From positions 23,244,243-23,308,242 of the forward strand of contig CM028333.1 in assembly GCA_016647705.1 (NCBI GenBank): 64,000 bases of DNA. The letters are read 5' to 3'. The position numbers and the translations under genes are program-made. Below the pieces are notes generated by a model. That model made no database searches. It was not told the DNA's origin and saw only the letters and a program-made list of their open reading frames with translations. Numbering within the stretch: position 1 is the first letter of the stretch; the number at the start of each line of letters is the position of its first letter. Of the stretch, positions 20,013-58,866 are shown piece after piece. Origin of the DNA: Eucommia ulmoides (taxonomy: Eukaryota > Streptophyta > Magnoliopsida > Garryales > Eucommiaceae).

Positions 20013-20024
20013 AATACCCCCAAA

Positions 20025-23274: not shown

Positions 23275-23280
23275 AAAACT

Positions 23281-27220: not shown

Positions 27221-27327
27221 AAAAGAAAAACAAAAGCTACCAAACAAAAAAAGCTCTAAGCCAAATAAATGCCTAAAGTAAAATTTGGTCATTTACTCAC
27301 AATATCAATAATAACCAAATCAACCAA

Positions 27328-27345
27328 TCCTCGACAACGGCGCCA
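27328..27345 (-). promoter_or_regulatory. Primer-binding site, tRNA-Asp type (right internal)
   Basis: The plus strand reads tcctcgacaacggcgcca, two changes from the 3' end of plant tRNA-Asp including CCA. It lies 6 bp from LTR 3. Confidence 0.8.
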
Positions 27346-27351
27346 AAAACT

Positions 27352-28770: not shown

Positions 28771-28805
28771 GGAGCAACAAACACGAGAGAAAGAGCTACA
28801 CACAT

Positions 28806-36383: not shown

Positions 36384-36608
36384 TGTTGGCGTGAGTAAAC
36401 CTCTCAACCATCTACTTCCCAACCATCTACCATTAATGCCAATCATCTACCATTAATGTATTCCCCAACCACCTTCTACCATTAATATACTTCCCAACCA
36501 TCTACCACCAATTTGTTTGTTGTATATATATATATATGAATGTATATTATCAAATGAGTAGAATGAAAAATATAAGATATTCTATCTATCCTCCTATCTG
36601 TTTTAACA
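36384..36608 (+). repeat. 3' LTR of the copia element, 225 bp
   Basis: It starts right after the polypurine-like 'cttgagggatag' (36373-36383). It contains imperfect 'aaccatctaccattaat' repeats and ends 'gttttaaca'. Confidence 0.75.
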
Positions 36609-36738
36609 CTTACCACTAAATAAATTCCAAATAAATTCATCATTCAACTGCCAACTAGTACTTTACCAAAAAAAGAAAAAAAAAACTACCAACTAGTCAA
36701 GTACCAATAATTGTACTGTTAGCTAAAAAAAGGAGTGG

Positions 36739-36747
36739 TATTTAAAA
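36739..36747 (+). promoter_or_regulatory. TATA-like element upstream of exon 1a
   Basis: TATTTAAAA lies 65 bp before the chosen ATG. The surrounding 'ggagtggtatttaaaatggtcttta' is also conserved before the second exon 1 (41737-41745), as expected for a core promoter. The transcription start is not visible from sequence. Confidence 0.45.
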
Positions 36748-36811
36748 TGGTCTTTAACGATACAAGAGACGATAACGAAGAAGTATGCAGCGCCAAGCAG
36801 AATTAGCAGAA

Positions 36812-37263
36812 ATGGGAACTTCTGGTGTTGATAAGCTGAACCGAAGATTGATTTCCACCACAGACCATGCACAAGGAAATCGTCCAGAAGTGCAAAATCA
36901 CATGTCTCACGCCATGGAGTTGGTGAACTCCTTGGTCCTGCCAATGGTTCTCAACACCACCATCCAGCTCGGAGTGCTCCAGATGATAGCCGATGCCGGT
37001 CCCGGCGCCCAACTCTCCACGTCGGACATTGCGTCTCGTTTTCCTGCCAACAATCCGGACGCATCGTCCATGCTCGACCGGATGCTCCGGCTTTTGGCCA
37101 GTTACTCTGTCCTCACCTGCTCTGTCGTCGACGGCGGCGATGGCCGTCTCCACCGATTGTACGGACTGGCGCCTGTGGCGAAATACTTCGTCCGGAACCA
37201 GGATGGGGCATCGTTGGGTGACCTAATGGCATTGGTCCAGGACAAGGTCTACCTGGATAGCTG
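36812..37263 (+). CDS. COMT-like O-methyltransferase, exon 1a (intact)
   Basis: It encodes residues 1-150 plus two bases of codon 151: the N-terminal dimerisation and substrate-gating part of plant class II O-methyltransferases. Visible motifs are 'AMELVNSLVLPMVLNTTIQL' (helix typical of the family), 'LDRMLRLLASYSVLTCS', 'LYGLAPVAKYFVRN' and 'ALVQDKVYLDSW'. The start at 36812 was chosen because the paralogous exon begins at the same codon; an in-frame ATG at 36785 would add nine residues. The donor is TG|GTACGT at 37263/37264. Relative to alfalfa COMT numbering (offset +11), positions M130, N131 and L136 read L141, V142 and Y147. It differs from exon 1b at about 29 of 452 bases by hand count (about 94% identity). 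Confidence 0.75.
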
Positions 37264-37314
37264 GTACGTTTGTAGCACTTGATTTTAGTGCCCTATAAAT
37301 TTCCTTTAAATTCA

Positions 37315-37668
37315 TTTAGTGAATGTGGTTTTGCTTCTCTATCAACAATAAAATTTAGCTTATAAAATGAGATTTTTTCTCACACGTAAATTTGACTATC
37401 AGCATCTTCCATATTCGATATGGAATAAATCCAACAAAATTCTTCTTATATATCAAGCCTTTGATCGGTTAACCCTCAATGAGTCTATCACTTTGTGGAA
37501 GAGACTTCCACTCGACAACCTTGTACGGTTGTTGTAACCTGGACTCTAATACCTATGTAAGGTAGTCTTGAACATCTCTCAATCGTAAAAGTTAGCTTAT
37601 AAGGTGAGACTTTTTTTGACACTTATAACTTGATCATCAGTCTCTTCCATATCTGAAACTAATATTAA
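37315..37668 (-). mobile_element. Degenerate TRIM retrotransposon
   Basis: Two terminal repeats, about 37315-37436 (ending 'aaatccaaca') and 37556-37668 (starting 'tgtaaggtagtcttgaac'), share 'gttagcttataa..tgaga' and 'cttccatat'. Between them, a 'ggactctaatacct' matches the inverse of the tRNA-iMet priming site, giving minus orientation. It is the same family as the clean copy at 52108-52448. Confidence 0.65.
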
Positions 37669-37719
37669 AAATACCATATATATCTAAATCAATTAAAAAT
37701 AGCATGTAGTTAATGTTCT

Positions 37720-38060
37720 TGTTAGAAGGTTCTAACTTAACCTTATGGTACTAAGCATAGTAGCTCATTTGATTCATATGGTGGATTAAAAACTCTCCAC
37801 TGATTAATGTGGGATATGAATTTAACACTCTCATTTAAGTGCAACCCATGATTTGACTACGAAGGAATGATGAGAAGTGTGCAATATTAGTCTTGCATGA
37901 ATGATATGACTACGGGAGAATAGGAATTCTCATTAATCTTGGCTCTGATACTATGTTAGGAGGTTCCAACTTAAAACCATATGGTGCCAAGTGGAGTAAT
38001 TCCTTTGATTTATATAATGGTTTGAAAACTCTCGATGAACGTAACATCGAGAGAGTGGTA
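37720..38060 (-). mobile_element. Second TRIM-like element, different family
   Basis: The terminal repeat 'tgttagaaggttctaactta' at 37720 recurs as 'tgttaggaggttccaactta' at 37954, immediately after 'ggctctgatac' (37941-37951), the inverse of a tRNA-iMet priming site. The 120-bp interior is non-coding. The right repeat is truncated near 38050. Confidence 0.6.
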
Positions 38061-38286
38061 AGTATAGTAGGTAACTGGATCATAGCACCTATATCCTTTC
38101 AACATAGAAGAATAGCTGAGGAAAACACACTAGATAGATTTATCATTTAACTTAATGCGAGTAAGGCTCTAATTCTAGACAAAACACGTACAACCAAAGA
38201 CTCGAGGTAAGATAGGAAAAATAGTGCTAGTGGGTTGCAACATATGAAGGTGGGCTTTGCCTGTAAGGACACAACTCGGTGCGCAA

Positions 38287-38870
38287 TTAATGAGATAGAC
38301 AGCAATAAGAACTGTCGTGTGTCAAAGATTTAGGAACATTCATTTCTCGCAAAAGACAATGAACGACAGACATGATATGACGGTTCTTACATTCCGCCAC
38401 ACCATTTTGCTCAAGGGTGTAGGGGTAGGTAAGTTGCTGAATGATGCTTTGCTTATTAAGTTCAGCCCAAAATTCATTAGATAAGTATTCCTGGCCATTA
38501 TCTAACCTGATATTGCATACAACGATTTTATATTGGGTTTTTATCATTTGAAGGAAGTGAGTAAAGTGAGTGTAAATCTTTGATTTGTGTTTCATCAAAC
38601 AAACCCAAATGCATCGACTATAATCATCTATGAAGGTGACATAGTAGCGTTGTTTGGAAATGATTGCGATAGAAGAGGGTCCCCAAATATCAGAATGGAT
38701 AAGATCAAATGCTCAGGAGGCACGGTGCATGCAAAGAATATAAGAGGTACATACGTGTGTGTTTAGACAATTCACAAACCACACATTGAAATTTAAAGTC
38801 CTTGTAAACTTTATTAATGGACGGAAACAACCAACACAAATCCTGAAAAATTTGCATGTCCCAGACTGGC
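38287..38870 (-). pseudogene. Copia integrase remnant
   Basis: Out-of-frame 'VVCELSKHTRVPL' (38745-38785) is the end of the zinc-finger segment. 38287-38598 gives 'IRLDNGQEYLSNEFW', 'PYTLEQNGVAECKNRHIM' and 'CLLREMNVPKS', the integrase core with its second catalytic Asp (DNG) and the Glu-bearing 'QNGVAE'. Stops before 38598 break it. Confidence 0.85.
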
Positions 38871-38980
38871 ATGTTACAAGTTTAAATTTTTGAAAAACAC
38901 ATAGAGGAATAAAAAACAGGTAATACAGAAGCTTGCATAATAAAAAGTGGAGCGCGTGGAGGTGGAGGGCTACCGAAATA

Positions 38981-39313
38981 TTAGAGGCAATCGCGTTTAT
39001 ATCCCCTGCCAAAAATCTTCCTCGTAGTCAGGTCTTGCAAGAAGCAATGATCAGGTAAGAAAACAACAGCGCAATTAAGATTTTTAGCAAGACGACTAAC
39101 CAAAAGAAAATTATAGGCAAATTTAGCAACATAATGAACAGAGTGAAGAGTGATATCAGAGGACAAGTAGATATCTCTCTGACAACGAATATGGATAGAG
39201 GTTCCATCGGCAATGCATATAGATTGGTTGATAGGTGAAACATGGGAGATGAAGGTAGAAAACTCACCAGTCATGTGATTGTTTGCCCGAAATCCAGAAT
39301 CCAAGTAGGGCAA
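38981..39313 (-). pseudogene. Copia protease remnant
   Basis: It begins 'YLDSGFRANNHMTGEFSTF', the copia protease active site (expected D-S/T-G-A followed by H-M-T), and continues with 'ICIADGTSIHI' and 'LHSVHYVAKFAYNFLLVSRL'. The Asp-Ser-Gly is present but Ala is replaced and two residues appear inserted after it. Confidence 0.8.
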
Positions 39314-39649
39314 CCAGACTTACCATGAAGTGTAGTAGGAGTACTTGAGGCAAGAACAACTGTGGGGCTGGAAGACGATGCCAAAGTGGTTAACTAAGCT
39401 TGAAGCTGGGCCACCAAGGTAGAGAAGGAGAAAGCGAGACCAAGGCTGGGTCTTACTCAATGAAGTGTAGTAGGAGTACTTGGGCCTATCCAGGAGAGCT
39501 GGTGGAAAATCTATTGGACTAGGGATAATATCAGTAATAGCACCAATATGTGGTCCTCATTTTCCTTTCCGCCCTTCTAGGTTTCGGGGTTTCAATTCAG
39601 GCTGAAGATTGTGACAACAATCTATGTTGTGACAAGACTTTCGACACTG

Positions 39650-40564
39650 CTAACAGTATGGTGGCATGACTGATGAGAGAGGACCAGAGGGAGCCGGAAA
39701 GGCCATCTGCGAACCAAAGGGAGCCGAAAATGCCATCTTCTCAAGGATTGAAGGAGTGACTTCAAGTGAGAGAAGTAGCCAGCGTTTTGAATCATTGTCA
39801 ACAGTAGAGAATGCATTGTATATATCTGGTATCGGTGATGTGTTTAAAATTTGAGTGCGAAGATTCTCATACTCCGGATTTAAACCCATCAAGAAATGGT
39901 ATGTGTGTCGACGATCCTGGTGTTTGGATTCGATCTTAGCAGTATTCTTAGGAAATTCACTCAGAGGTTCATACTGCGCAAGTTCCTCCCACCGAGATTG
40001 AAGGTAGTCAAAGTAATCCGCAACTGAAAGTCTGAATAATGCCTGAGAGGTATAGGAAATCTTACAATAGAGCTCGAAGATCTGTGATTCATTGCGAGAA
40101 TGGGCATACATCTTCGTAAGAGTAGACCATAATCCGTTGATCGTCTCGTGGAACATGAAGATATTATAGATCCGTTCTTCCAAAGAATTGAAAATCCACC
40201 CGAAGATGGTACAATTATCAGCATCCCACTGAGCAAACTTGAGATCGTTGATATCTGACTTTGGCTCAGTATCGTTGAGTCATCCGGTCTTATGTTTTCC
40301 ACCAAGGTAGAGAAGGAGAAAGCGAGACCAAGCAGGGAAATTCGCTCCATTGAGTAAGACGGTGATAACACGTTGGACTATGGCCTCAGGGGCATAGGTA
40401 GAATCTGAGCGCGCGGGTAGCTGTAGAGCATGAACGGTCTGAAATGGGACATCACCTTCTCTTCCAAATGCCATTAATACAAATGAGATAAGATTGTAGC
40501 AATGAAATAGGCGGAAAAAAAATGCTACAAACGACTGACCGGGCTCCGGAAGAAGAAGACACAA
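39650..40564 (-). pseudogene. Copia gag remnant
   Basis: 40280-40564 encodes the gag N-terminus with 'VITVLLNGANFPAWSRFLLL', the usual 'L.G.NY..W' motif. 39650-40183 continues in another frame with 'INGLWSTLTKMYAHSRNESQ', 'DYFDYLQSRWEELAQYEP' and 'HFLMGLNPEYENLRTQIL', matching the copia gag-polypeptide domain. A stop and frameshift lie between about 40183 and 40280. Confidence 0.8.
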
Positions 40565-40569
40565 TTTGA

Positions 40570-41320
40570 GAAGCGAACCAGAGACGTAGTTACCTAATCA
40601 TTCAAGAAATCGAAGAAACGACCATGTATTTAGAACATTCGGAATACCAACGAATGGAGAACAACGAGGACGAGCAGCAGATTTACAGACGAAGAACAAT
40701 CCGCAACTTGCAGCAGTAGGTAGAAGCTATATGGTTACTTGTAATGATGTCTGACTAATGGCTGCGGGTACTGGCCGCAAATAGAGTATAACAATGTACA
40801 ATTGACTTGTTCGCGCGAGACGGTGCACAAAGCTAGTGCTGGGTCACGAGGACGGTTGGATCGCGAAAAATGGTGTTGGTTTCCGAAATTGCGGTTGGGC
40901 AAGGGGTCGCGAAGATAGCTGATACGCGAAAAAAAAATGTTGATTCGCGAAATCTCAACTGGGCATGGGTTTGCGAGACAGTTGTGGGGCTGATTGGGTT
41001 AGGGTTTTGTGCGAAATTGGCGACAAAGCTAGGGTTTTAGTGGCGAGGTTGAGAGGCGTAGGGTTAGGGTTCCCAACTAGTGGCAACGAGCTAGGGTTTC
41101 GATGGTGGTCTGTCCAGCGACAACGAGTGTGGGTTGTGGGGCTGGTTGCAGCATCAGTAGCTTGGTTGAGATTGGCTCAAAGGGTTAGGGTTTCGGTGGT
41201 GGCTGGTTTTGCGAGCTAGGGTTTCTTAGTTGGCGGCAGCGGCGGCGACTTGGTGGTGGTGATCAGTGGAGTCAACAACTGGTGGTGACGGCGGCTTTTA
41301 GTGTTTGGGAAAGAAAAATA
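40570..41320 (-). other. Leader region of the copia element
   Basis: Between priming site and gag. Several 'gctagggtttt' or 'gttagggtt' words (for example 41026, 41060, 41090, 41185) resemble plant 5' untranslated leaders. A plus-strand 84-codon frame here is a by-product. Confidence 0.5.
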
Positions 41321-41587
41321 TTGGCTCTGGATACCAAAAAGGACACAGGGGGAAAAAAAATTATATTGATAATTTTTTTACATACAGAATGAGTTTTATT
41401 CCCCTAATTATATAGCTGCAGGAATAGACTAAATTAGAAAGAATACTATTAAAATAAATAGACTAATAAAATCTTACAATAATGATACTGAAAATAGAAA
41501 TTAATATATAAATATAATATTTTAACAGTAATTATCTCTAAATAAATTCCAAATAAATTCATCAATCAACTACCAACTGGTATTTAC

Positions 41588-41760
41588 TACCAATAATTGT
41601 ACTGTTAAAGTGTTAAGCTAAAAAAGAGAGTGGTATTTACTACCAATAATTGTACTGTTAGCTAAAAAAAGTAGTGGTATTCATCAATCAACTAGTCAAC
41701 TGCCAATAGTTGTACTGTTAGCTAAAAAAGGAGTGGTATTTAAAATGGTCTTTAATGATA
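41588..41760 (+). repeat. Threefold promoter-proximal repeat upstream of exon 1b
   Basis: The block 'ccaataattgtactgttagc' plus 'taaaaaa.g.agtggtatt' appears at 41590, 41643 and 41703 (spacing 53 and 60 bp). The upstream paralogous promoter has it once, at about 36706-36742. The last copy contains the TATA-like TATTTAAAA (41737-41745). Confidence 0.85.
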
Positions 41761-41794
41761 CCAGAGAGGATAACGCCAAGCAAAATTAGCAGAA

Positions 41795-42246
41795 ATGGAA
41801 ACTTCAGGTGTTGATAAGCTGAACCGAAGATTGATCTCCACCACAGACAATGCACAAGGAAATCATCCAGAAGTGCAAAATCACATGCCTCACGCCATGG
41901 AGTCGGTGAGCTCCTTGGTCCTGCCAATGGTCCTCAACACCACCATCCAGCTCGGAGTGCTCCAGATGATAGCCGATGCCGGTCCCGGCGCGCAACTCTC
42001 CTCGTCGGACATTGCGTCTCGCTTTCCTGCCAACAATCCTGACGCACCGTCCATGCTCGACCGGATGCTCCGGCTTTTGGCCAGTTACTATATCATCACT
42101 TGCTCTGCCTTCGACGGTGGCGATGGTCGTCTCCGCCGATTATAAGGACTGGCGCCTGTGGCGAAATACTTCGTCCGGAACCAAGATGGGGCATCGTTGG
42201 GTGACTTAATGGCATTGGTCCAGGACAAGGTCTTCGTGGATAGCTG
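41795..42246 (+). pseudogene. COMT-like exon 1b with a nonsense codon
   Basis: It has the same length (452 nt), start codon and end phase as exon 1a, with donor TG|GTGCGT. The frame is open except codon 117 (42143-42145), where TAA stands for the Tyr codon TAC of exon 1a ('HRLYGLAPV' versus 'RRL-stop-GLAPV'). Read through, the rest of the exon is normal ('VAKYFVRNQDGASLGDLMAL'). It lies 9.2 kb before exon 2. Using this exon would end translation before the SAM domain; a downstream restart is not supported. Confidence 0.85.
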
Positions 42247-42377
42247 GTGCGTTTGTGGTAATTGGTTTTCGTGCCCTAGAAATTTACCCAAATTCGTTAC
42301 AGTTGATGCAATCGCATTCTACGCTTATATTGTCTTAATTTTCTTTCCCTCCCTTTCTTATTGCATTCACTTTGAAC

Positions 42378-45007
42378 CTAGGAATGACGGACACGGCGAC
42401 ACGACAATTTTTCAAAAGTCCCGACACAAACGCAGTAGAGACATATAAATAAATAAATATATAATTTTATTGTCATTAAATAAATTCGTTTAAAAAATAT
42501 TAAGATAATTATAATTATACAAAATTAAAAAAAAATTAAGATAATTATAATTATAATTTCTACTATTTAATAAATAAAAAATATATAAAAAAAGATAAAT
42601 TAAACAAAAAGTCAGAGCAATCTCACCTTGTACCTGAGATTCACGTGCCCTTATAATCAATGTTGTAAAAGGCGGGAGCGTTGAGCAGAGCGTTTTGGAC
42701 TGTCCGAGGCAGGGAGTAAACCTCGTAATACATAGACTTTTATATTTTAAAAATATTATATATAGTTAAAAAATACCAAAAAAAATAATTTAAAAATATG
42801 TATATATGAATTATGAAAAATAAACATAAATAACATCATAAGATGGGGAAAAAATATAATGATGAATATATATATGAAAGATTCTAAGTATTAACCAAGC
42901 AAAATCCCTCTTTTGTTCGCCTTCTTTTTCTTCATGTCTGACTTCAAGGTAAGAAACAATGTAAATTCATTTAATAAATAAAATAAATTTAGAGAAATTC
43001 AGAAAAATAAAAATAAAAATAGATCAGTGAAATTCAAAAAGCAGAGAAATCCAGGGAAAAAAATAACAGAGAAAAATTTCATTAAAAAAAACAAATAACA
43101 GAAAAAATGGAGAAAACTTAAAGAAACAAATAATAGGAAAAAAGGGAGAAAAACTAAAAATGAAGAAAAATAACATAAACTAGGTAGCGTTTGGTAACCA
43201 CTCTCATCCCAACCATTCCCATCCCATTCCCATTTTTTTGGGATTAAGTTTTGAGCATAGCATTTAGTAATCCATCTCACTTTTTTGTTTTCGTTCCCAT
43301 TCCATTTCCATCCCAGGATTGTGCCCACTTTTTATATTGGCTTGAGAAACAAAAAAAAATTGTGTCCAAGATTTCCCATCCCGTTCCCAACCCAAAAAAC
43401 AGCCGAACACAATCAAACACAGTCGCTCCATTATCACCTTCACCTTCGTCGTCCTCTATGGTCATCATCCAAGAAGATCGTCGTCGTCATCTTCTTCTTC
43501 AACCGTTCTCCTCTGGTCATCGTCTGCTTTTGCACGTTCGTCGTCATTTTTCATCACAAGTGTCATCGTTTGTCGCCGTCTCCATCACGTTGTTCGTCGT
43601 CGTCTTCTTCGCGTCGTCCGTCATCCTCCATTGTCATCGATTTCGTCTGCTTATAGGGTTTCGATTTCGAAATCTAAACCCTATTTCAATTTCAATTTCG
43701 AAACAGGGTTTCGATGTCTACTCTTGGTTTGTCGTCTGGTTTGTCGTCTTCTCCATCGACCATGTTCTTATACTTTTCGATTTCGTCGACCGTGTTCATC
43801 ATCTGCTTTTCGATTTCGAAATCGAAACTCGAAATCGATTTCGATTTCGGATAGGATTTCAAAATCAAATCGAAACCTTGTTTCCATTTGATTTCGATTT
43901 CAAAATCGAGGCTTGAAATCGATTTCGGTTTCCTATTTCGAAATCGAAACTCAAAATCAATTTCAATTTTGAAATCGAAATCTAAATAGGAAATCGATTT
44001 CGAGTGCGATTTCGATTTTGAGTGCGCATTGGTGAAGAAGAAGTTGTTTTTTTTGGCTTGAAATCAATTTCGATTTCAAAATAGGGTTTCAATTGTTTGA
44101 TGATTTCTTGATTGTGGTTTATGGTTCGTTCTTAATTACTTTGATAAAATTATTATCAAACGCGATTATGTTCCCTAATCAAAAAAAAAATTGTCGTTAC
44201 CAAACGCCTTTCTATTCCCAAGAAGGAAACAAAATTCTCATCATATCTCATTCTCATCTAACCGCATGGGATGGGCACGAAACAGTTACCAAATGGGCAA
44301 ACACTGAAATGCACACTCCAAGAAACCCTTTTATACTCCACGTGTCCACCAAAATGCATAGAAACACAATACTTGGAGACAACACCGATTCTAATTTCCA
44401 AGAAAAGGTATGATAGTATAAGCATGATATATATACACGAAGAATAAGCATTTCAAAAAAATAGAGACCCAAAAAAAAAACGAAATATTGAAAGACACAG
44501 AGAAGACAACGGTGGTGGTTTCGATGCGTTTCCTCCTCGGGAAGAAGACAATGTCGCGCATGGTAGGTTTCCTCCTCGGGAAGAAGACAGCATCGTGATG
44601 TAGTCTGAAATCAATTGAAGGAGGAGGACGAGCCAGACTAGAATCGAGGAGCTGCGATGGCATTCCAGACCAACATCGCGCATGTATTTCTTTCTCTTTT
44701 TGCATCGAGGAGTTGCGATGGCGACTACAACGCGAGAACTATGTTCAGTGATAGCGACGACGACCAACTGTTAGGCTTCAAAATCTGCAAAGGTATGCCT
44801 CAACGTAACAACCGATACTTAGAACTATGTAACACGTTTACCTTCGCGTGTACGACACGGTTACTTTCGCATGTCCGTGCTGTGTCGAAATTAATAAAAA
44901 TAAATGAAAATTTTGAACATGTTCTAACACGTGTCGGAGCCGTGTCGGTGTCCTACACATGTCAAACACCAACACTCAGCCTCCGGTGGAGTGTCCGTGC
45001 TTCCTAG
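42378..45007. mobile_element. hAT-like non-autonomous element, 2.63 kb, 8-bp TSD
   Basis: Ends CTAGGAATGACGGACAC and, inverted, CTAGGAAGCACGGACAC agree at 15 of 17 bases. Flanks CTTTGAAC (42370-42377) and CTTCGAAC (45008-45015) are a candidate 8-bp target duplication with one mismatch, the size typical of hAT elements. 'gacacg' words are enriched near both ends. No transposase frame is visible. A Harbinger-like element is nested inside. A Mutator-like element (9-bp TSD) is the main alternative. Confidence 0.65.
43183..44300. mobile_element. Harbinger-like element nested in the hAT-like element
   Basis: Terminal regions GGTAGCGTTTGGTAACCA and the inverse of '...cagttaccaaatgggcaa' are imperfect inverted repeats, with subterminal 'atcccatt' words on both sides. 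The interior includes many 'gatttcgaaatcga' words (43655-44080), shared with the element at 54647-58733, so both belong to one family. The presumed TSD (CTA against ACA) is not matched, so the ends are approximate. Plus-strand frames at 43251-43916 follow the simple repeats. Confidence 0.65.
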
Positions 45008-45015
45008 CTTCGAAC

Positions 45016-45489
45016 ATATAAGATGTAAACATATTAGCCTGAATGATCTTCAAAACAATATCTAAATTCAAACTATCAAACTGGTTCCACCTACTAGAAA
45101 GGTTTTGATAGAACATTAATTAAAGAGAACAAAAAGGAATAAGAGGCCCTAAATGTGACAAACATAATTTTTGACTATTTTAATTAATGAAATTGGTCGG
45201 GTTAGTATTCCATTGCATTCTTTTGGGGATCGATATAATATATTTGAATGCTAAAAATGATTAAGATTTGTATGAGATTTTAAATTCTTAAAATAACCCA
45301 CTTGAGGTTGAAGGCTTCAAATGGATAAGTAATCCTACATTGATTGTGAATGAAGAACTTGAGAACTATATTATGTTATAAATTGGAAGCAATCTTACAT
45401 TAGTTTTGGAGGAAAGACTTAAACACCATATCGAGTTATAAGTTGGAAGTAAAAGAAAAGCCAATGGGTATACAATCTTTGTGCATTAT
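45016..45489 (+). other. Intron 1 sequence without recognised features
   Basis: AT-rich; no transposon ends or coding motifs seen. Confidence 0.4.
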
Positions 45490-46213
45490 GAGAGATCTAT
45501 ATTTAACCACGCAAGCACGCCACCGCCCTCGACCAGTTTGGGCTGGGTTCAGATTTGGTTTTGTATTTTGGGTTTAGGTCGGCTCGCTTTGATCCAGACT
45601 TAGGTCGGGGCAGATGCAGGTCTGAATTAGGTCAGGTCTTAAGTTGCCGGAACAAAGTATATTTGAAATTAAATATAAATATTTAAATAAGGGTGGCAAT
45701 CAATTAGTTAATTAACTGCTCAATACTTAAGTTTGAAACAATATCAGTGAACAATGTGAACATTCACTGATAACTATTTAGTGTAAACATTCACACTGAA
45801 CATGTGTCTTTCCAAATAGAATTCATGCATTGTTTTTTTTTTTTGCTCTTCACCATCAAAACGAAAAACGTATAGAAATCTATATTTAACCATACAAGCG
45901 TGCCATTGCTAACGACCAGTTCGGGCCAGGTTCGGATCCGGTATTGTATTTTGGGTTTGGGTCGGGTCGCTTCGAACCAGACTTGGGTTAAGGTAGATGC
46001 AGATTGGATTAGGTTGGGTCTTAAGTTGCCAGGGTAAAATCTATTTAATATTAAATACAAATATTTAAATAAAGGCGGCAATCAAACAGTTAATTAACTG
46101 CTCGACAGTTAAATCTGAAACCATAACAGTGAACAAATGTAAACGTTCACTGGTGACTGTTTAGTTGAACGCTTACACTGAACAGGTGTCTTTCAAATAT
46201 CATACATTCGATG
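45490..46213. repeat. Tandem duplication, period about 383 bp, two copies
   Basis: Copy 1 from about 45490 and copy 2 from about 45873 share 'ctatatttaacca', 'gtattttgggttt', 'cttaagttgcc', 'aatatttaaata', 'cagttaattaactgctcgac' and 'tgaacaggtgtcttt' in order. Between them is a T-run (45832-45844). They lie in intron 1 of the COMT-like gene. Confidence 0.85.
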
Positions 46214-47821
46214 GTATCTTTGGTCTTTCATAAATAATAGACTTTACGTTTATTTTGAATTAGTCTCATTCATAACATTTATCACTTCATAACGCCAACA
46301 AAACAAAGAACATATAGAAATCTGTGAGAGTTCAAACACAAGTTCAGTTCGCTGATATTTTTGGTTTCAAGTGCTTGTACCAGAAACTTGAAAATCATTG
46401 TACCCTGGAGAAGGCAGACATTCATTTACCATTAGCATCGGTGTGAGGGCACAAATCTACTTTAAGGGCATAGTCTCAAACCCTAATCTCGATCTACTTC
46501 ATTTTTATTCATTGTTTGAATATTCTGAATAATTTGTTATTTAAATTTTAGTTTATTTGTTTTGAGAACGTTCACACCCTGTTTCTAGTTCTGTGTTTAT
46601 ATCTTGTGAATGTTCACACTCACATTTTGTTTTTGTTTTTGAACTGTGAATGTTCATATCATGAATCTAGTATGATATATACATTATAATCTTTCGTAGA
46701 ATTTTCAGGATTTAGTTTTACTGTCCATACATGCTTAGTTATTGTTCACATTAATATCGTTTAACAACTATTAGTTTTATTTCATGATTATTTAAATACT
46801 TAAATTTTGAAATTTCAGTAATTATTACCAACAGAAAAAAAATAAAAAAATTCATACGGTTAACGTTTACTATTCATTTGATTCAAAGGAATCATACCAT
46901 AACAAGCGTTCCTTTTCAATTTGGTATTCGTATCCACTAGTTTCTGAGGAAAAAATAATGTAACTAGTGAGTGTTCTTTAAATGATTAGATGAACAGTTA
47001 TTTTGAAAGTACGATATATATCTAAATCGGTTAAAAATATCACATAGTTAATGTTCCCTCAGAAGGCACTCAATCATATCATCATCATGATGAAATAAAG
47101 AATCTAACAAATGAAAACAGGATTAATGAAAGTCTACTAACTAGTTGCTGAATTGTAAATGATGATACAATGCAAATGAAATCTTGAGATGAACGTTCAC
47201 TAATTATATGCTTGCAAGATGTACAAGGAATGCGTGTAGTTAACATTTATTTGGAAAACAGTCAAAAATTGATATTAAAAACACCTAACAATTAGAAAAC
47301 TTATTAGATAGTGTCCACTAATCAATTGCTCAAGTGTAGATACTGATATAATATAGTAAACAAGTTTAGTATAATATAGTAAACAAATTTAGTGAAAGTT
47401 CAACCTTGATGTTATACTCCCATAATACCCCAGGAAGACACATAGTTAATATTCACTTCAAAGACATGTGGAAAACCAATTAACTGCTCGGATGTAAATT
47501 AGTAAGAAAAATTACAAGATCATTAATTGAATGTTCACTAATTATATAATCACAAAGTACAAGGAAGGCAACGATGAAAAGATAATTAGAGTTTGAATGC
47601 AAAATTCAAAATTTTGAAAAAGGAAAAGAATTATGTGATTAACAGAATGTTGGCTCTTTTTGTGACTGCAAAGTATAAAATATTCCTGAAATAACATTAA
47701 CGAGATAGAGGACCAAAAGATAACCAACATTGCGGGATAAAAAAACTAAATAAAAATCCGGGATAAATTTTTTTCCCACTTTTTGAAGGACAAAACTTTA
47801 AATTTTCTTTTAATTCAGTGT
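46214..47821 (+). other. Intron 1 sequence; segment shared with the upstream copy
   Basis: Mostly AT-rich. The stretch 47016-47062 ('gatatatatctaaatcggtt...agttaatgttcc') matches 37670-37717 of the upstream partial copy. This shows that part of intron 1, not only exon 1, was duplicated. Confidence 0.5.
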
Positions 47822-48443
47822 TCTAAGTATCGGCCCTTACGTACTGTAATGGTCGATATGTAATGGAAAAATAGGGTACCGTTACATATACAGACCGATA
47901 CTTGGAGCTTGGGTCAAGATTTGCACCGTAATGGGCCAATACGGGCACTTAACAGTGTTACATCTTGTTAGGGGGAGGCATAACAGCCGTTACAGGCTGT
48001 TATGCCGATATAAGTTGTATTTCCAGCCTTTCCCAGCAAGCCCCTCCCATCAGCTGGAATTTCAGCATTTTTTCAGGCCCCTCCCATCAGTTGAATGCTA
48101 TAATATGATGTACAAGTAAAATTTACTCTTTTATTATATTTGTGTAATATATTTTTATTAAATACTGTATGCATCATCTTATTTTTTTAAGATTATTTAG
48201 TAAGACGATTTTTCATATTTTTTCATATCTTTATTGTGTTGTAGATGCAGTTAAATGTCATAATATCTATTAGAATGTGTTCATTAAGGGTTAAATGGAT
48301 AAAATAATTACTATTATTGAGTTTTTGAGGAGATGATTTTAAAAAATTCACTACCCTTACGGTCGATTCCTGTTATGCCGATACTCCCGATACCGTTACA
48401 CTACAACTATTATTGTTACAGTACTCGATACTACAATTTAAAA
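47822..48443 (-). repeat. Dispersed element with 'taacgg'-rich termini, inverted copy
   Basis: Its minus strand aligns with the start of the repeat at 49461 ('gttttaaat.g.agtatcg', 'aacggtatcgggagtatcgg'). The two ends share an inverted 'tttaagtatcgg'-like word, suggesting a DNA transposon, but no target duplication was found. Confidence 0.55.
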
Positions 48444-48560
48444 CCTTCATTTAATTAGTATAAATAACTAAGTAAGAACAAATTATATTTAATATTTTTT
48501 GAACAAGATGTTAATTTCAAATATGATTTTTTTTTTATCCTCTGTTATCTCTAAATCTTA

Positions 48561-49425
48561 GGCTATATTTGATAACCAAATTAAGTATTGAAATCTGAAT
48601 AGATTAAGTGATTTTTATGATACGTTTGTTGGATAACTACAATTAAGACCACTTAATCAATTAAGTATTTAAAATTTGTTTAAAATTTTCAATCAAATCG
48701 TTAGTTACCTAATTGTTCTGTTGAACATGCTCGGTCAAAATTTCAGCACTTAAAACTTAAAATCCTAAAAATTTAAGTGTTATTAAACAAGTCATTTGTC
48801 TTTTAAATTGTATATATGTGTGTTTAATTTTGTTGTTGCTTTTTTTTTTTTTTTTCTATTGTTAATTATTCAAAAACTTACTCTACAAATTTGATTTTTT
48901 CTTTTTCCTTTTGTGTGTAAATTCAGTGTTCATCAACAAATATTCATTTGATTATTTTTGCAATGGATGAATAGGTTTACTGCTTCTACTTAAAATATAA
49001 ATATAAATATAAATAAAAAATAGTTTAAAATATTTAATAATGCATGACTCATTTTTTTTTTTTTAGCATTTATTACTTTAAATCATCAAATATCTATTTA
49101 CCACAACTACCATTAAATATCATTAAAATAAAATATTAGCAAAAAATGTTATATACAAACAATTATAGAAAGAGAAAATACTAAATTGAAAAACGTAGTG
49201 AGAGAAAATTTTGAAAGTGAGAATATTTAGGAAAGAGAAGGTTGTAAAGATTATTTTAGAGACAAAAATTTGAACATAGATATATTTTTTATGTTAGAAG
49301 TATTATAAAGGCAAGTATTTTAAACATTTAACACTCAATAAATTTATCATTCATAATTTTAGCACTTAAAATTCAGCAATTATAAGTTTCTAGCATTTCA
49401 ATTTTCAGCTTTGCCAAACGGGCCT
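48561..49425. mobile_element. Tourist-like MITE, 865 bp
   Basis: It starts GGCTATATTTGATAACC after TTA (48558-48560) and ends with the inverse of AGGCCCGTTTGGCAAAGC before CTA (49426-49428). The ends are similar to the GG...TTTGG termini of the other Harbinger-like elements here. The interior is AT-rich. Confidence 0.6.
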
Positions 49426-49460
49426 CTAGTTTTCATTTGTATTGGTGTATTGGAGGTAAG

Positions 49461-51293
49461 ATTTTAAATCGCGGTATCGGGTTACATAACGGTATCGGGA
49501 GTATCGGTTTGTCCGTAATGAGAATCGATCGTAACGGTCGTGATTTTTTTTAAAATCACCTGAAAATCCTCAAAAACTTAATCGTTGAAATAGTTCTACT
49601 TATTTAACTCTTAATAACCACGTGATATTGTGATATTTAACTATATCCACAACACATTTAACAAATAAAAAAATGAAAAAGAAATTAAGAATTGTCATAC
49701 TAAACAGTCTTAAAAGAATAAGAAGATGCAAAACATTTTAATGAAAATATGTTATAATAAAACTAGAAAATAGGAAAACAAGGCGAAAATTGTTTGTAGG
49801 GCTGAAATTAAGCCCAATATAGGTAGAAATTTAAAATATTTATAAAAACCTTACAGATCTGCTAGAAAACGGAGAATTCATGTTGTTTTTATTAAGGAAT
49901 TCAACTAGAAATACTTGGATTTGGCCGAAAATACAATGAGGGGCTTGGATCTATCTAGCCAAAAATGGAGTGGAGGAAGGCTAGATAGTCTCGATTTGGC
50001 CGAAAGTTGGATGGTTAGGTTGGAGGATGAATGGGAAAGGGTTGGGTGTAAGGTGAAAAGTGAGCAAAAATAGTCATTTGGACACAAATGTGCATAATTG
50101 GCCGTAACGGCTTATAACAACCATTACACTAACGCGTAACAACCATTAATCCTATTACAGTCCATTACAAATTGTTAAGGGCTGTTACAATAGCGAATCG
50201 GTCTGCAAATAATTTATTGGCCTGTAACAATAATGGAGGGCCAAAAATCCGTTATGCATTGCCCGTGACTCTACGTAACAACTGATACTTAAATTTGTGA
50301 CTAGAAGTCAAGAAATTTGCATGTCAACCAACTGATTACAAAAATATGAAATGAACATTAAACTTGCAAAAAATGAATAAGAAGATGGAAAAATATGTTA
50401 GAAATAAGTAAGCCCATTCCCAGTCTTCAATTAGTTTGATCCTTGAAACATTATATGATCATAACGGTTGTGATTTTTTTTTTTTAAAATTACTAGATTA
50501 TCCTCAAAAACTCAATAGTTATAATAGTTCTACTTATTTAACCTTTAATAAACACATGATATTATGATATTTAACTATATGTACGACACATTTAACAAAT
50601 AAAAAAAAAGGAAAAGAAATTAAGAATTGTTGTACTAAATATTTTTAAAAGAATAAGAAGATGCATAACATTTAATAACAATATTTAACACAAACATAAT
50701 AAAACTAGAAAAGAGGAAAACAAATGTAGGCAAAAATTGTTTGCAGGGCTGAAATTAAACTCAATATGGGTAGAAATACAATGAGGGGCTTGGATCTAAC
50801 TGAAAATGGAGTAGAGGAAGGCTAGATAGCCTGGATCTGGCTGAAAGTTGGATGGCTAGGTTGGAGGATGAATGGGATAGGGTTGGCTGTAAGGAGAAAA
50901 GTGAGCAAAAAAAGTCAATTGAACACAAATATGCATAATTGGCCATAACGGCTTATACAGCCGTAACACTAACGCATAACGGCCATTAATCTCGTTACGG
51001 GCCATTAAAAATTGTTAAGGGCTGTTACGGACACGAATCCGTCTACAAATAATTTATCGGCCCGTAATGGTAACGGAGGGCCGAAAATCTGTTACGTATT
51101 GTCCGTTACGCTACGTAACAACTGATACTTAAATCCGTGACTAGAAGTCGAGAAATTTTCATGTCAACCAACTGATTGCGAAAATATGAAATGAACATTA
51201 AACTTGCAAAAAATGAATAAGAAGATGGAAAAATACGTCAAGAGAAATAAGTAAGCCCATTCCCAGTCCTCAATTAGTTTGATCCTAGAAACA
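49461..51293 (+). repeat. Large tandem duplication just upstream of exon 2
   Basis: A block from about 49528 to 50454 is repeated from 50455 to 51293. 'gtaacaactgatacttaaat' at 50275 recurs exactly 840 bp later, and the long tail 'tgtcaaccaactgatt...attagtttgatcct' is in both. The first copy holds about 90 extra bases. The units contain 'taacggcttata' and 'gttaagggctgttac' words of the dispersed element also seen at 47822. The second copy ends about 180 bp before the exon 2 acceptor. Confidence 0.85.
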
Positions 51294-51473
51294 ATATACA
51301 CTCCCAAATCCTTAAATCCATTCGTTATAGCCAAAATGTAGATGCAACCTTATTGAATGGACAATATGGGTTATTCCCAGAGGATCATACTAATTGAGTA
51401 CCATGTTCCTGAATTTTTTGTAGTCCTCTATATTTTGAAGTTGCAGCTGATCCGATTTGAATTCGACTTGTAG

Positions 51474-51784
51474 GTACGAACTAAAAAATTGTGTTCTTGA
51501 AGGGGGTGTTCCGTTTGAAAGGGTGCATGGGACACATGCATTTGATTACAAGGGGAAGGATCCTAGATTTAATGAGATTTTCAACAAGGCAATGATCAAC
51601 CACACAACTATAGTCATCAAGGAACTCCTTGAGAGTTACAAAGGTTTTGAACATCTCACACGGTTGGTCGATGTTGGCGGCGGCCTTGGAATCACCCTCG
51701 GCATGATTACATCTAAATACCCCAGCATTAAGGGAATTAATTTTGACTTGCCCCATGTTATAAGACACGCCTCTGCCTATCCAG
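51474..51784 (+). CDS. COMT-like O-methyltransferase, exon 2
   Basis: 311 nt, the size usual for exon 2 of COMT genes. The acceptor is TTGTAG|GTACG and the donor CCAG|GTACTC. It encodes residues 151-255, starting W-Y-E-L-K, with '[20 protein letters not shown]', the SAM-binding motif I 'LVDVGGGLG' (215-223) and '[10 protein letters not shown]' (238-247, Asp242 for the SAM ribose). Against alfalfa COMT (+11), A162, F172, F176, M180 and H183 are kept as A173, F183, F187, M191 and H194, while H166 is K177. The first exon must supply phase 2, which both exon 1 copies do. Confidence 0.85.
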
Positions 51785-52107
51785 GTACTCTATTTTTTTA
51801 TTTTTATTTTCCAGTGTCTTACCAAAACCCTCAATTGGGCATGAAGGATAAAGGCAAAAGTTAGCATGTACAGAGTCAGAAAATGAACACAATTTGTTTT
51901 GTTTTTGGTCATCCACTCAAAGAAATAAATCGATTCATTTAAGAGGCTATTATAGCTAAAAATGGGTTTGAATACCTAAGATCCAAGTTCAACATGTACA
52001 ACTGCACAGAAGCAAGGTATGTGATCATCTGCAGCTGGATTTTCTTTTAGTCTTATTCTTATTGTCACTTAATCATTGATTGTTGTGTTTAATGTAAGGT
52101 AGCAAAT

Positions 52108-52448
52108 TGTAGGGTGGTCTTGGGTCTCTCTCAACCCCTAAAGTTAGCTCACAGGTGAGGTTTTTTCTCGTACTTATAACCTGACCATCAGCCCCTTCCA
52201 CATCTGATGTGGGATAAATCCAACAATCTCCCCCTCACACTATAGGTCTTTGGTAGGCTAACCCTCGATTAGTCTCTCCCTTTGTGGCTATTGGGTCAAA
52301 TTTGTTGTAATTTGGGCTCTGATACAAGTGTAGGTGGTCTTGGACCTCTCTTAATCTCCAAAATTTAACTCATGAGGTGAAACTTTCCTTCACATCTATA
52401 ACTTGACTAGCAGTCTCTTCCACATTCAATGTGGGGTTAAACCCAACA
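52108..52448 (-). mobile_element. TRIM retrotransposon in intron 2, 341 bp, TSD CAAAT
   Basis: Two terminal repeats of about 118 bp: 52108-52226 and about 52330-52448. On the minus strand they start TGTTGG or TGTTGGG and end CCTACA. The 100-bp interior includes 'gggctctgatacaag' (about 52315-52329), the inverse of a tRNA-iMet priming site. Target duplications CAAAT at 52103-52107 and 52449-52453 match exactly. No coding capacity. Confidence 0.9.
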
Positions 52449-52459
52449 CAAATCTATTA

Positions 52460-52807
52460 GGTTGTTTGGTTTTTGTCTAGAAAAACAATTTTCTGTTTCC
52501 TAATACAAAAATAATAAAATAAAATAAAATAAAAAATTAACTACCATTTTGATTGCATAACTCAAAATTAATTTCCACAATACTCAGTTATCACGTCACA
52601 TACTTCTAGCATTATATTTTTTTCGTTATTTTAAAATTTTAATAACTTCTTCTCCATGTCTTTATTTTCTATTTCTTTATACATTCTGCCTATTTCTTTC
52701 TATTCCATTTTCCATATTTTTTTTTTTTTTTCAAACTAAAGCAGACAACTTCTCACAATTTTCAAAAAATATTTTTAAAATTTTTGAAAACTAAACCAAA
52801 CAACACC
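52460..52807. mobile_element. Tourist-like MITE in intron 2, about 348 bp
   Basis: It starts GGTTGTTTGGTTTTTG after TTA (52457-52459). It ends with the inverse of GGTGTTGTTTGGTTTAG before GTA (52808-52810, where TTA would be expected). The interior is AT-rich with homopolymer runs. It abuts the target duplication of the TRIM and ends 16 bp before exon 3. Confidence 0.65.
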
Positions 52808-52823
52808 GTAATGTTTGGTACAG

Positions 52824-52888
52824 GTGTGGAACACATCGGCGGGGACATGTTTGTAAGTGTTTCAAGTGGAGATGCCATTTTCATGAAG
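52824..52888 (+). CDS. COMT-like O-methyltransferase, exon 3
   Basis: 65 nt, acceptor TACAG|GTGTGG and donor GAAG|GTAAAA. It encodes residues 255-276, 'VEHIGGDMFVSV' with Asp262 (adenine/SAM contact in the family) and 'GDAIFMK' ending in Lys276. Small exons of this size and phase are usual for the family. Confidence 0.85.
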
Positions 52889-52971
52889 GTAAAATAGAAT
52901 ATGGAGGAACAATGATTGCTATGTTAGTATTTAACTTTGGGTAGAAGTTAATATATTATTAATGACAACAG

Positions 52972-53268
52972 TGGATACTTCATGATTGGAGTGATGATCA
53001 ATGCTTGAAGTTGCTGAAGAACTGCTACAAGTCTTTGCCGGAGGAGGGAAAGGTAATCGTCGTGGAGGTCGTTCTCCCAGAGATACCCGACACTGGTTCC
53101 ATTTTTAGAAGCACCAGTGAAATCGATCTGATGATGATGACTCAATACACGGGCGGAAAAGAGCGAACCAAACAGGAGTTTCTGGATTTGGCAAAACTGG
53201 CTGGGTTTCAAGGCATTAGGTTTGAATGCTTTGTGTGCAACTTTTGGGTCATGGAATTTTACAAGTAG
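52972..53268 (+). CDS. COMT-like O-methyltransferase, exon 4 (C-terminus)
   Basis: 297 nt in phase 0, acceptor CAACAG|TGG, ending in TAG at 53266-53268. It encodes residues 277-374. Catalytic residues by alfalfa numbering +11: His280 in 'WILHDWSDDQC' (base that deprotonates the acceptor), Glu308 in 'KVIVVEVVLP' and Glu340 in 'GGKERTKQEF', which frame the His. 'LAKLAGFQGIRF' and a final 'VMEFYK' are family-typical. In the acceptor pocket I316 and M320 are kept (I327, M331), but I319 is M330 and N324 is Y335. The product is a SAM-dependent O-methyltransferase (or N-methyltransferase) of phenolic or related metabolites, cytosolic by default, with no targeting signal seen. Confidence 0.85.
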   Translation, partial: WILHDWSDDQCLKLLKNCYKSLPEEGKVIVVEVVLPEIPDTGSIFRSTSEIDLMMMTQYTGGKERTKQEFLDLAKLAGFQGIRFECFVCNFWVMEFYK

Positions 53269-53439
53269 GTAAGGTTGTGTTTTGAATGGGTGTATATCGA
53301 GTTAAAATATGAATATGCTTTCTTCAAATTTGAACTGGCCAAATTGCTTGGTTTAGATCGTCGCCTGTAAAATAACTAACTATGATCCCGTGCCTGAAAT
53401 GTTAAATATATATATATATATATATATTATTTTATTTTA

Positions 53440-55402: not shown

Positions 55403-57523
55403 GTTCATGCATGTTGAGATCAGAAAAATCTAGAAATCAAATTCAGAACAATCTAGAGAAAAAGAAAGAGAATCGGAGATGGGGGTCGTCGATTTCTCTT
55501 GAATCGGCATTCCTCTGGCGGTGTGGGCGTGACATCGCCGTTCAAGGTGACTTTTGTGTGTAAGGGCTTGTTCAGGTGTGGCTGGGTGTGTATGGGTGAG
55601 GGTGCTCTGTTTTTCTGTTCATGCCAACAGTGTGTGTATGTGTGTTGCCATTACTGCTGTATGTGTGTTTTTCGTTGGCCGTGTGTGGGTCTATGCATTT
55701 GTGTGTGTTCTGCTCAGCCGGTGCATGTGGGTAACTGTGAATATGTGTGTGTTTTCTGTTTCCGGTTGGTGTAGCCGTGGGTGTGTATGTGTTCCGACGG
55801 TCAGGTGGGTGTGTGGTGATGTGTTCTATGTGTGTGTGGCTCCTCCGGAGGGGTGTGTGTGTGTGTCGTTGTTGGCTTGCTGAAAGAAAACAACATAGAA
55901 AGAGGAAGAGAGAGAAAGCAAAGAGAGAGAGAGGTCGGTCGGCAGTTCGTCGCCAGTGGGTTGCCGTGCTCTGTTCATCGTGTGCATATGTGTAGGATGT
56001 CATGCGTGCTCTGTTTTGTTTCAGTCCGGTGTGTGTGTGTGGGGGGGGGGGGGGTTATGTGCATGTGATCGAATCTGTGTATGTGTGAGGTTCGTGGGTG
56101 TATTCGATCGAGGGTGTATGCGATCGTGGCCGTTTGTTCGGTGATTGCATGTGCAAGTCGTCATCGGCAGTGTACGTCGGTGTGGGTCGTCGGTCGGTCA
56201 GCGTTGTCTATGGGAGTGGTTGTTGGTGTGAGCGTGGGTGTGAGGTCGCCGGCAGTCGGCGACATTAAGAAGAGAGAGGGAGGGCCGGCTGGAATTCAAG
56301 CAGAGCAGAGAACAGAAAACAAAACGGAAAAAGGAAAAGAAAGAAGAAGGGGAAAAAGAAGAAAAAAGAAGAAACTACACAAATAACCCCAACAAATTCA
56401 AAATCAGTCTCGCGACCCGTGAACGATTCGGAATGGGTAACATTTTTCGTTAAATTTATTTTAATTTTGTTAAATTAAATTCTGACATATAAATTTTGTA
56501 ATCGGAATAATAAATTTGGAACCGTTCGTATTACAAATTTTATGCAGTAATTTTAAACAAAATGAAAAATTAACCGAATAATAATTTTACATAATAAAAT
56601 GTAGAGACGGGAAAATAACGAAACTTAGGGTCTGCATTACATGATTAGGTGATTTTATATAAAATATTAATTTAGACCCTGTCACTAATAGGTTCGTAGG
56701 CACCTGAGGAACGGTAGAGTATAGTCGATAAAGGTTTTTGGGAGCGGATCACCAGGTGAATGTACTGTCTTCTTGTAAACCTATTTTCAAATATATGATG
56801 GAATAAATGTGTTTACTTAAAATTTGATGAATTTATAACTTATATGGATCAAGCGATTTTGGGTGATTTTGGAAACGTGGAGTTTGTTTGTTTTTAAAGA
56901 AAGTGGAAAAATGATTTGTCGAATCTAGTTGGTTTTCTAAAAAAGGTGAAAAAAATTATATTTGGGTTAAATCGGTTTTGGAGATAGAGGATGATGTTAT
57001 TGATTTGTAATTTGACGATAATGTTATTGATTTAACGATGCCATAGCTTATGTCCTGTTCGGAGGGGTAGTCCGGTAAGTGGTTATTGATATTATGTCCT
57101 GTTCAGAAGGGTGGTCCGGCAAGTGGTTATTGATATTATGTCATGTCCGGAGGGTAGTCCGGCAGGTGGTTATTTATATTATGTCTTATCCAAAGACGTC
57201 CGACGGGTGGTTATTGATATTATGTCCTGTCCGAAGGATTAGTCCGGCAGGTGGTTATTTATCCCGTTTAAGAGCAAACCCTATTGGTGGTACGGTATCG
57301 TTGCAACTCCCGATCGTGAGGTTAAAACGATCACATAGCTAGCCGAGGCATAGTATGGTGTGGTGTGGTATGATGTGGTGTCGTATATGGTGTTTTCTCG
57401 TATATGGTGATTGGGATGAGTACATTTATACATATTCTTTTATATTGGATTGGTATGTTCTGATTTCATTATACTGTACGGTTAGTTGAATTATTCTGGT
57501 TGATTTTCATTGTTTAGTTGGGA

Positions 57524-58036: not shown

Positions 58037-58866
58037 AAATCTAAGAACAAATTGAAGAACACCAAGAACAAATTCAAGAACAACAATCACAAATCCAAAA
58101 AATCAAGAACAAATTCAACCTATTTCGATTTTGAGTAGTTTGAGTTTGAGTTTCGATTTCGAAATTGAAATCGAAATACGTTTCAAATTTGATTTCGATT
58201 TTCGATTTCGATTTCAAAATCGAAACCCTAAAGCAGACGACGAAGGCGACGATGAAGGCCAAGGTAACGAAGGCAACGAAATAGGGTTCGACGATGATGA
58301 CGAAGGCTAAGACGACGGCGACGGCAACGAAGGCGACGAAAGTGATAATAGCGACGGTGAGGAAAGCGACGAAGGAGCACGAACACGAACACGAAGAAGC
58401 AAATGAACGACGACGACCAGCGAAAACGAAGAACCAGATGAAACCGATTGAGGTTGATGGAGGGGATGGACATGAAGGACGATGATGGACGAAAGTGAGC
58501 TCAGATTCTGCTTTGTTTTTGGTTGGGAATGGGATGGGAGTCGGTAGAAACAATTTTTTTTTGTTTCTCAACTCTATACAAAAAATTGGGATGGATTTCC
58601 ATTTTCAAATGAAATAAGAACAGAAACAAAAAAAAGTAGGATGAATTACCAAATACTATGCCCAAAAATAAATCCCAAAAATTTGGGAATGGGATGAGAA
58701 TTTTTGAGATGGGAGTGGTTACCAAACGGGGCTTTACCTAATGTATTTTGAGCAGAATCAGGTAGAGGCACTCAACTTGGCTAAATCGGTGACTCAAACT
58801 GTGGTTGAAGTTGTAGAGGATTGGAGATTTGATGATATTAAGGCTGCTATGCTTGATCAAAAAGTA

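Follow-up and report, generated by a model that had tools for sequence, protein, structure and literature searches.

A duplicated first exon in an O-methyltransferase gene of Eucommia ulmoides, with a disabled inner copy and an outer copy that completes the reading frame

Does a plant gene have to be regarded as dead if its nearest first exon is broken by a stop codon, when a second, distant copy of the same exon would complete its reading frame? This question is raised by an O-methyltransferase locus of Eucommia ulmoides, related to caffeic acid O-methyltransferase (COMT), which we analysed within a stretch of 64,000 nucleotides referred to here as the window (assembly GCA_016647705.1, contig CM028333.1, positions 23,244,243 to 23,308,242; plain coordinates are those of the window). 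The window lies on C9 (47.5 Mb) of an assembly with 391 contigs and 946.7 Mb. Two versions of the first coding exon, an outer one far from the rest of the gene (exon 1a) and an inner, near one (exon 1b), precede exons 2 to 4. The analysis confirmed that the first exon is duplicated, that the inner copy is disabled and that the outer copy completes the frame.

The frame of exon 1a is open for 150 codons plus two bases; that of exon 1b is interrupted by a single in-frame stop, a TAA at codon 117. Both copies end in the same phase and are directly followed by GT. Spliced in silico, exons 1a and 2 to 4 gave 374 codons with the terminal stop as the only one, and exons 1b and 2 to 4 gave a frame with an extra stop inside. 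The predicted intron from exon 1b to exon 2 measures 9,227 bases, and the one from exon 1a encloses exon 1b (Table 1). Since the junction between exons 1 and 2 (AGCTG/GT...AG/GTAC) has the same position and phase in an intact paralogue on C7, the splice position predicted here matches that of a related gene. In another paralogue, on C8, approximately 8.4 kb separate the matches to exon 1 and exon 2, so there is a precedent in this genome for a long first intron. The preliminary description of this DNA had stated that the far first exon is open with the correct phase and donor, that the near one carries a TAA at codon 117, and that only the far one yields a complete gene of 374 codons, by means of a 14.2-kb intron skipping exon 1b; in the assembly, all of this held.

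Table 1 Features of the O-methyltransferase locus and its surroundings, in window coordinates.
Feature	Position	Strand	Remarks
Proximal upstream region of exon 1a	36601-36811	+	Homologous to that of exon 1b (blastn, alignment)
Exon 1a, the intact outer (far) first exon	36812-37263	+	O-methyltransferase dimerisation domain; donor gtacgt
Inferred intron of 14,210 bases enclosing exon 1b	37264-51473	+	GT...AG ends and phase
Repeat 3' of exon 1a	37318-37652	+	37325-37652 is 70% identical to 52114-52425 (intron between exons 2 and 3)
Truncated antisense Copia fragment	38290-41527	-	Integrase, Pol_BBD and gag pieces (Pfam); one long terminal repeat (LTR), outer edge ~41527
Proximal upstream region of exon 1b	41530-41794	+	Homology to exon 1a side starts at ~41520-41532, adjoining Copia edge
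Exon 1b, the pseudogenic inner (near) first exon	41795-42246	+	TAA at codon 117; donor gtgcgt
Premature TAA of exon 1b, codon 117	42143-42145	+	~100 bases 5' of the exon 1b donor
Two diverged head-to-tail non-coding units before exon 2	49527-50456, 50457-51298	+	~0.93 and 0.84 kb, 73-96% identical piecewise
Exon 2	51474-51784	+	Start of S-adenosylmethionine-dependent methyltransferase domain; AG directly before 51474
Exon 3	52824-52888	+	Intact
Exon 4	52972-53268	+	Catalytic His and Glu residues; stop codon

The two first exons are 94% identical and differ at 29 of 452 bases. Leaving aside the stop, the encoded sequences show 16 amino-acid differences, five of them within codons 99-106 (37106-37129 in exon 1a, 42089-42112 in exon 1b). 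Codon 117 is Tyr in exon 1a as well as in all eight outgroup proteins and a stop in exon 1b, so that by parsimony the stop arose in exon 1b after the duplication. The stop would thus postdate the duplication and have struck the redundant inner copy, unless there was unequal exchange with an intact allele. Changes were polarised at columns in which at least seven of the eight outgroup proteins agree, with codons 2 and 19 lying outside the alignment. Exon 1b turned out to be derived at four codons, namely 37 (Leu in 8/8 outgroups), 99 (Ser in 7/8), 101 (Leu in 8/8) and 117. Scored against a profile of the outgroups, exon 1a reached 169.5 bits and exon 1b 159.8 bits, with an X at the stop of the latter. 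Between the two copies we counted 16 nonsynonymous and 12 synonymous changes (stop codon excluded), and the ratio of nonsynonymous to synonymous divergence (Ka/Ks) was 0.41 with a Ks of 0.12. Under substitution rates that we take to lie between 1.5e-8 and 2.5e-9, this Ks corresponds to about 4 to 24 million years, a range too wide for dating the duplication. Profile score, Ka/Ks and polarised changes all lean towards constraint on exon 1a, none of them strongly.

A number of observations weigh against a functional gene spliced from exon 1a. Exon 1a is itself derived at codon 85, with Ser in place of the Pro found in 8/8 outgroups, and less clearly at codon 39, where its Asn occurs in one of the eight outgroups and the Ser of exon 1b in six. 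Four polarised changes in exon 1b versus one or two in exon 1a are too few for significance, and for most of the 16 amino-acid differences no polarity could be assigned. The synonymous excess is weak (P = 0.025-0.074, depending on the transition bias assumed). By a rough estimate for which indel rates were assumed, the probability of escaping any disabling change without constraint since the duplication is 0.08-0.33 for exon 1a and 0.02-0.16 for exons 2 to 4, and intact frames alone are therefore no proof of function.

The claim that exons 2 to 4 are intact and present only once was upheld by searches of the window and the whole genome. Querying the window with the 374-residue product by tblastn returned seven matches, five of which are the exons of the gene and two of which had E values of 4.0 and 7.7. 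In whole-genome DNA searches at a threshold of E<=0.001, exon 1 was found twice, each time inside the window (identities of 100 and 94%). Exon 2 likewise gave two matches, one in the window and one, at 67%, in the C7 paralogue. The single-copy status of exons 3 and 4 rests on the whole-genome protein search, which for large families yields minimum counts. Its 40 matches comprise the five exons of the gene in the window, nine matches in three other COMT-group loci (three each on C7 at ~0.58 Mb, on C64 and on C8 at ~30.71 Mb) and 26 more distant relatives (12 on C4, ten on C2, two on C5 and two on C7 at ~3.11 Mb). The matches on C4 (2060958-2192097) and C2 (868586-932491) form two clusters of remoter methyltransferase relatives. 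Thus, a second copy of exons 2 to 4 was not found in the ~947-Mb assembly, by DNA for exon 2 and by protein for all three exons. The 60-kb flanks on each side of the window gave no tblastn match at E<=1, and by the same method no remnants of exons 2 to 4 were found between 37264 and 41794. The window together with 120 kb of flanks contains no N. The idea that a missing upstream set of exons 2 to 4 resides elsewhere in the assembly was consequently rejected.

According to blastn and alignment, the homology between the two sides of the duplication extends from ~36601 to 37302 around exon 1a and from ~41520-41532 to 42285 around exon 1b. To the left of exon 1b it ends beside a Copia fragment. Positions 40334-41527 of this fragment match another genomic copy at 81%, with a shared end at 41527. 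For the segment 41300-41560 40 of 764 candidates were scored, one of the 40 being the window itself; the remaining 39 were 83-86% identical and ended at query positions 222-243, mostly 228-232, that is, near 41527-41531. A second LTR was not detected, and the frames scanned with Pfam included neither a reverse transcriptase nor an RNase H. Only ~265 bases remain between the transposon and the ATG of exon 1b; exon 1a, by contrast, is flanked upstream by different sequence of its own. TATA-like sites are located near -290 of both ATGs in unrelated sequence, at ~36523-36538 for exon 1a and inside the LTR for exon 1b. To the right of exon 1a, the homology stops about 15 bases short of the repeat listed in Table 1. 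The duplication of the non-coding unit before exon 2 lengthened the first intron. An inverted repeat has one arm in this intron (43188-43407) and the other beyond the gene (58506-58728), with the arms 15 kb apart and 79-84% complementary. We also considered a hidden gene within the 14.2-kb stretch, and this was largely rejected: among the 40 stop-to-stop frames of at least 75 amino acids in 36600-53300, 15 of those outside the O-methyltransferase exons were scanned with Pfam and proved to be either Copia or devoid of a passing domain. Four belonged to Copia (three above the curated cut-off, gag_2 below it); in the 11 others, a single frame showed DUF2069, below the cut-off, and ten were without a Pfam match.

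With modest confidence, we read the locus as one gene in which the outer first exon is spliced across the pseudogenic inner first exon. The first exon would have been duplicated in tandem along with its upstream sequence over at least some 200 bases. The inner copy, redundant from then on, would have changed Tyr117 to a stop with exon 1a staying open, and a Copia LTR now occupies the site at which a distal promoter of exon 1b would be expected. In a transcript started at exon 1a, the donor at 37263 would be joined to the acceptor at 51474. As a first exon, exon 1b needs a donor and no acceptor, and an acceptor is not expected in front of it. A simple count at the 20 AG sites in 41500-41795 found at most nine pyrimidines in the preceding 15 bases, so by this measure there is no clear acceptor ahead of exon 1b, which would be removed with the 14.2-kb intron. 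A transcript started at exon 1b, on the other hand, would meet its stop after 116 codons, ~100 bases before the exon junction, and be a candidate for nonsense-mediated decay. Rescue of such a transcript by downstream reinitiation was rejected, as the next in-frame Met is codon 139, past the dimerisation domain. We infer the order of events, the use of the exon 1a promoter, the 14.2-kb splicing, the skipping of exon 1b and a working enzyme from the DNA sequence.

There is a fair, if lesser, chance that two complete tandem genes once existed and that the upstream exons 2 to 4 were later deleted, leaving exon 1a as a stump that was or was not secondarily spliced. The Copia fragment between the two first exons probably lost part of its length by deletion there, judging from the missing second LTR, reverse transcriptase and RNase H. 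Moreover, the homology ends next to the Copia edge on one side and the repeat on the other, so the block that was duplicated may originally have extended further. No exons 2 to 4 were found between 37264 and 41794 or elsewhere, however, and since this alternative concerns history only, it is compatible with a single gene spliced across exon 1b. A locus that is dead or dying after the changes in its first exons and the growth of its intron, without any full-length transcript and with exon 1a and exons 2 to 4 as young relics that happen to lack stops, is less likely in our view but keeps an appreciable probability, as does the decay of two genes suggested in the preliminary description. The duplication is recent enough (Ks 0.12) for stop-free exons to be only modestly surprising, exon 1a has altered an invariant Pro at codon 85, the signal of selection is weak and the intron contains transposon pieces; but the splice ends, the reading phase across four exons and the catalytic residues are all intact, and the family profile fits exon 1a better than exon 1b.

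The remaining explanations have little to recommend them. The preliminary description had proposed, as one possibility, that a gene hit by a nonsense mutation was rescued through partial duplication, in the sense that the mutation in exon 1 came first and an intact first exon was gained by duplication afterwards. This fits the completion of the gene by the far exon 1 only. A copy of a damaged exon would, however, have inherited the stop, at a position where exon 1a and all eight outgroups have Tyr, and exchange with an intact allele or back-mutation would be required; the proposal is unsupported and in our view very improbable. We consider an assembly artefact, be it omitted or collapsed upstream exons 2 to 4 or a pair of haplotypes placed in tandem, to be just as improbable. 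The loss of an upstream set by the assembly, also raised in the preliminary description, found no support either: the sequence contains no N, no second set was found in 947 Mb, and the collapse of only one set of exons is unlikely where first exons with 29 differences in 452 bases were kept apart. The detected homology of only ~0.7 kb is, in addition, unlike that of a doubled haplotype. We likewise give very little credence to the retention of exon 1b as a regulatory decoy whose unproductive transcripts tune the output of the locus. Exon 1b keeps an in-phase GT donor with its stop ~100 bases before the junction, and a TATA-like site lies 290 bases before its ATG inside the LTR, but simple decay accounts for the same facts and there is no clear acceptor ahead of the exon. 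Least credible to us is a plant variable-first-exon locus with UGT1-like birth and death of first exons, belonging to an enzyme of the little-known chalcone C-methyltransferase clade, in which transcripts from exon 1b, or exon 1a transcripts with a retained intron, would yield the dimerisation domain only, as a small dominant-negative protein dampening the enzyme.

The product of the single gene spliced from exon 1a has the domains of a plant type-2 O-methyltransferase of the COMT group. With the exons scanned separately, PF08100 was recognised in exon 1a (E 7.4e-18) and PF00891 in exon 2 (E 7.4e-28) and exon 4 (E 1e-22). The catalytic residues His269, Asp270, Glu297 and Glu329 of alfalfa COMT are retained. 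COMT-group loci were found at no fewer than four places in the genome, namely at 36812-53268 of the window, C7:580040-585798, C64:1047013-1048324 and C8:30706270-30716419. In a tree of nine proteins (the product, five PDB chains and three paralogues from this genome, of which one lacked exon 3), the product grouped as sister to a C-methyltransferase of Rhododendron dauricum (PDB 9kus, which from its title we take to be RdCMT) with support of 100/99; the COMT chains and the C7 paralogue stood apart from this pair. It shares 61% identity and, in alfalfa COMT numbering, Leu130 and Val131 with RdCMT, but differs from it at positions including 136, 162, 166, 176, 183, 319, 323 and 324, and the loop in exon 1 is longer in RdCMT. 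Out of 228 columns invariant in COMT, 55 are changed in both the product and RdCMT, and in 22 of the 55 the two proteins agree in the new residue. Compared with caffeic acid O-methyltransferase, as represented by the C7 gene and alfalfa 1kyw, the product belongs to the same family, with the same catalytic residues, ~58% identity and an exon 1/exon 2 junction identical in place to that of the C7 gene. Its pocket, by contrast, judged by the substrate-pocket residues of alfalfa COMT, departs from that of a lignin COMT: Met130, Asn131, His166 and Asn324 are replaced by Leu, Val, Lys and Tyr, and positions 136, 319 and 323 are also changed, whereas those at 162, 172, 176, 180, 183, 316 and 320 are conserved. 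At 130, 131, 166 and 324, the C7 paralogue agrees with alfalfa COMT. These results suggest that the predicted enzyme is a candidate member of an RdCMT-like clade of chalcone C-methyltransferases. The product does not look like a lignin COMT, for which the C7 gene is the best candidate in this genome; the earlier label 'COMT-like' is thus apt for the family and not for a lignin COMT.

Duplicated exons in decay have been described before. Morais and Harrison (2009, PMC2718932) report pseudogenic exons from four mammals. Exon 1b, which carries a stop and shares homology with another exon of its own gene, falls within the definition of a pseudogenic exon, and it resembles the exons reported there as a stop-disabled duplicate beside an intact parent in the 5' part of a gene; unlike in those, a plant gene is concerned here, and the entire coding first exon is duplicated together with its proximal upstream region. 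The UGT1 clusters, as presented by Li and Wu (2007, PMC1885805), carry pseudogene first exons among working ones, and there the UGT1, GCNT2 and UGT2A organisations are called vertebrate-specific. Like UGT1 as presented there, the locus has tandem coding first exons that precede a single shared exon set, with a pseudogene among the copies. In contrast to UGT1, there are only two first exons, they are 94% identical with no sign of diversified specificity, and promoter use is putative. By analogy, the locus would work like a two-member variable-first-exon arrangement of the UGT1 type with one member dead. Type I alternative first exons of plants are, as described by Chen et al. (2007, PMC2174465), mutually exclusive and share their downstream exons; that set was defined by transcripts, whereas the present locus is known from DNA and has one first exon disabled. 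Our literature search, covering parts of the sources, recognised no plant precedent for a duplicated, partly dead first exon, which is not proof of absence. The arrangement is a plausible, ordinary case of a decaying duplicated exon, a class already described in mammals.

Elsewhere in the window, two to three long tandem copies (18588-22022, 23280-26717 and 26714-28863; spacing ~4.69 and 4.07 kb) are 61-94% identical piecewise, and a fourth, weaker match lies at 5400-6025. No Pfam match was obtained for one long frame within the copies, which are possibly a tandem retrotransposon array. At 57026-57262 there are about five diverged units of 41-44 bases each, most of which carry GTCCGG or a near form.

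For the annotation of such genes, the locus means that a predictor or reader taking the nearest first exon would wrongly call the gene dead or truncate it, as it is the outer exon that completes the frame. If the 14.2-kb junction is true, the locus would clearly exemplify, in a plant, a working gene that encloses a decayed first exon and, at the same time, the arrangement from which UGT1 clusters are built. According to one paper (PMC13109631), RdCMT dimethylates naringenin chalcone, and the identification of homologous C-methyltransferases for related flavonoids and acylphloroglucinols is still elusive. A candidate relative of the chalcone C-methyltransferase in E. ulmoides is at least as useful as the story of its exons.

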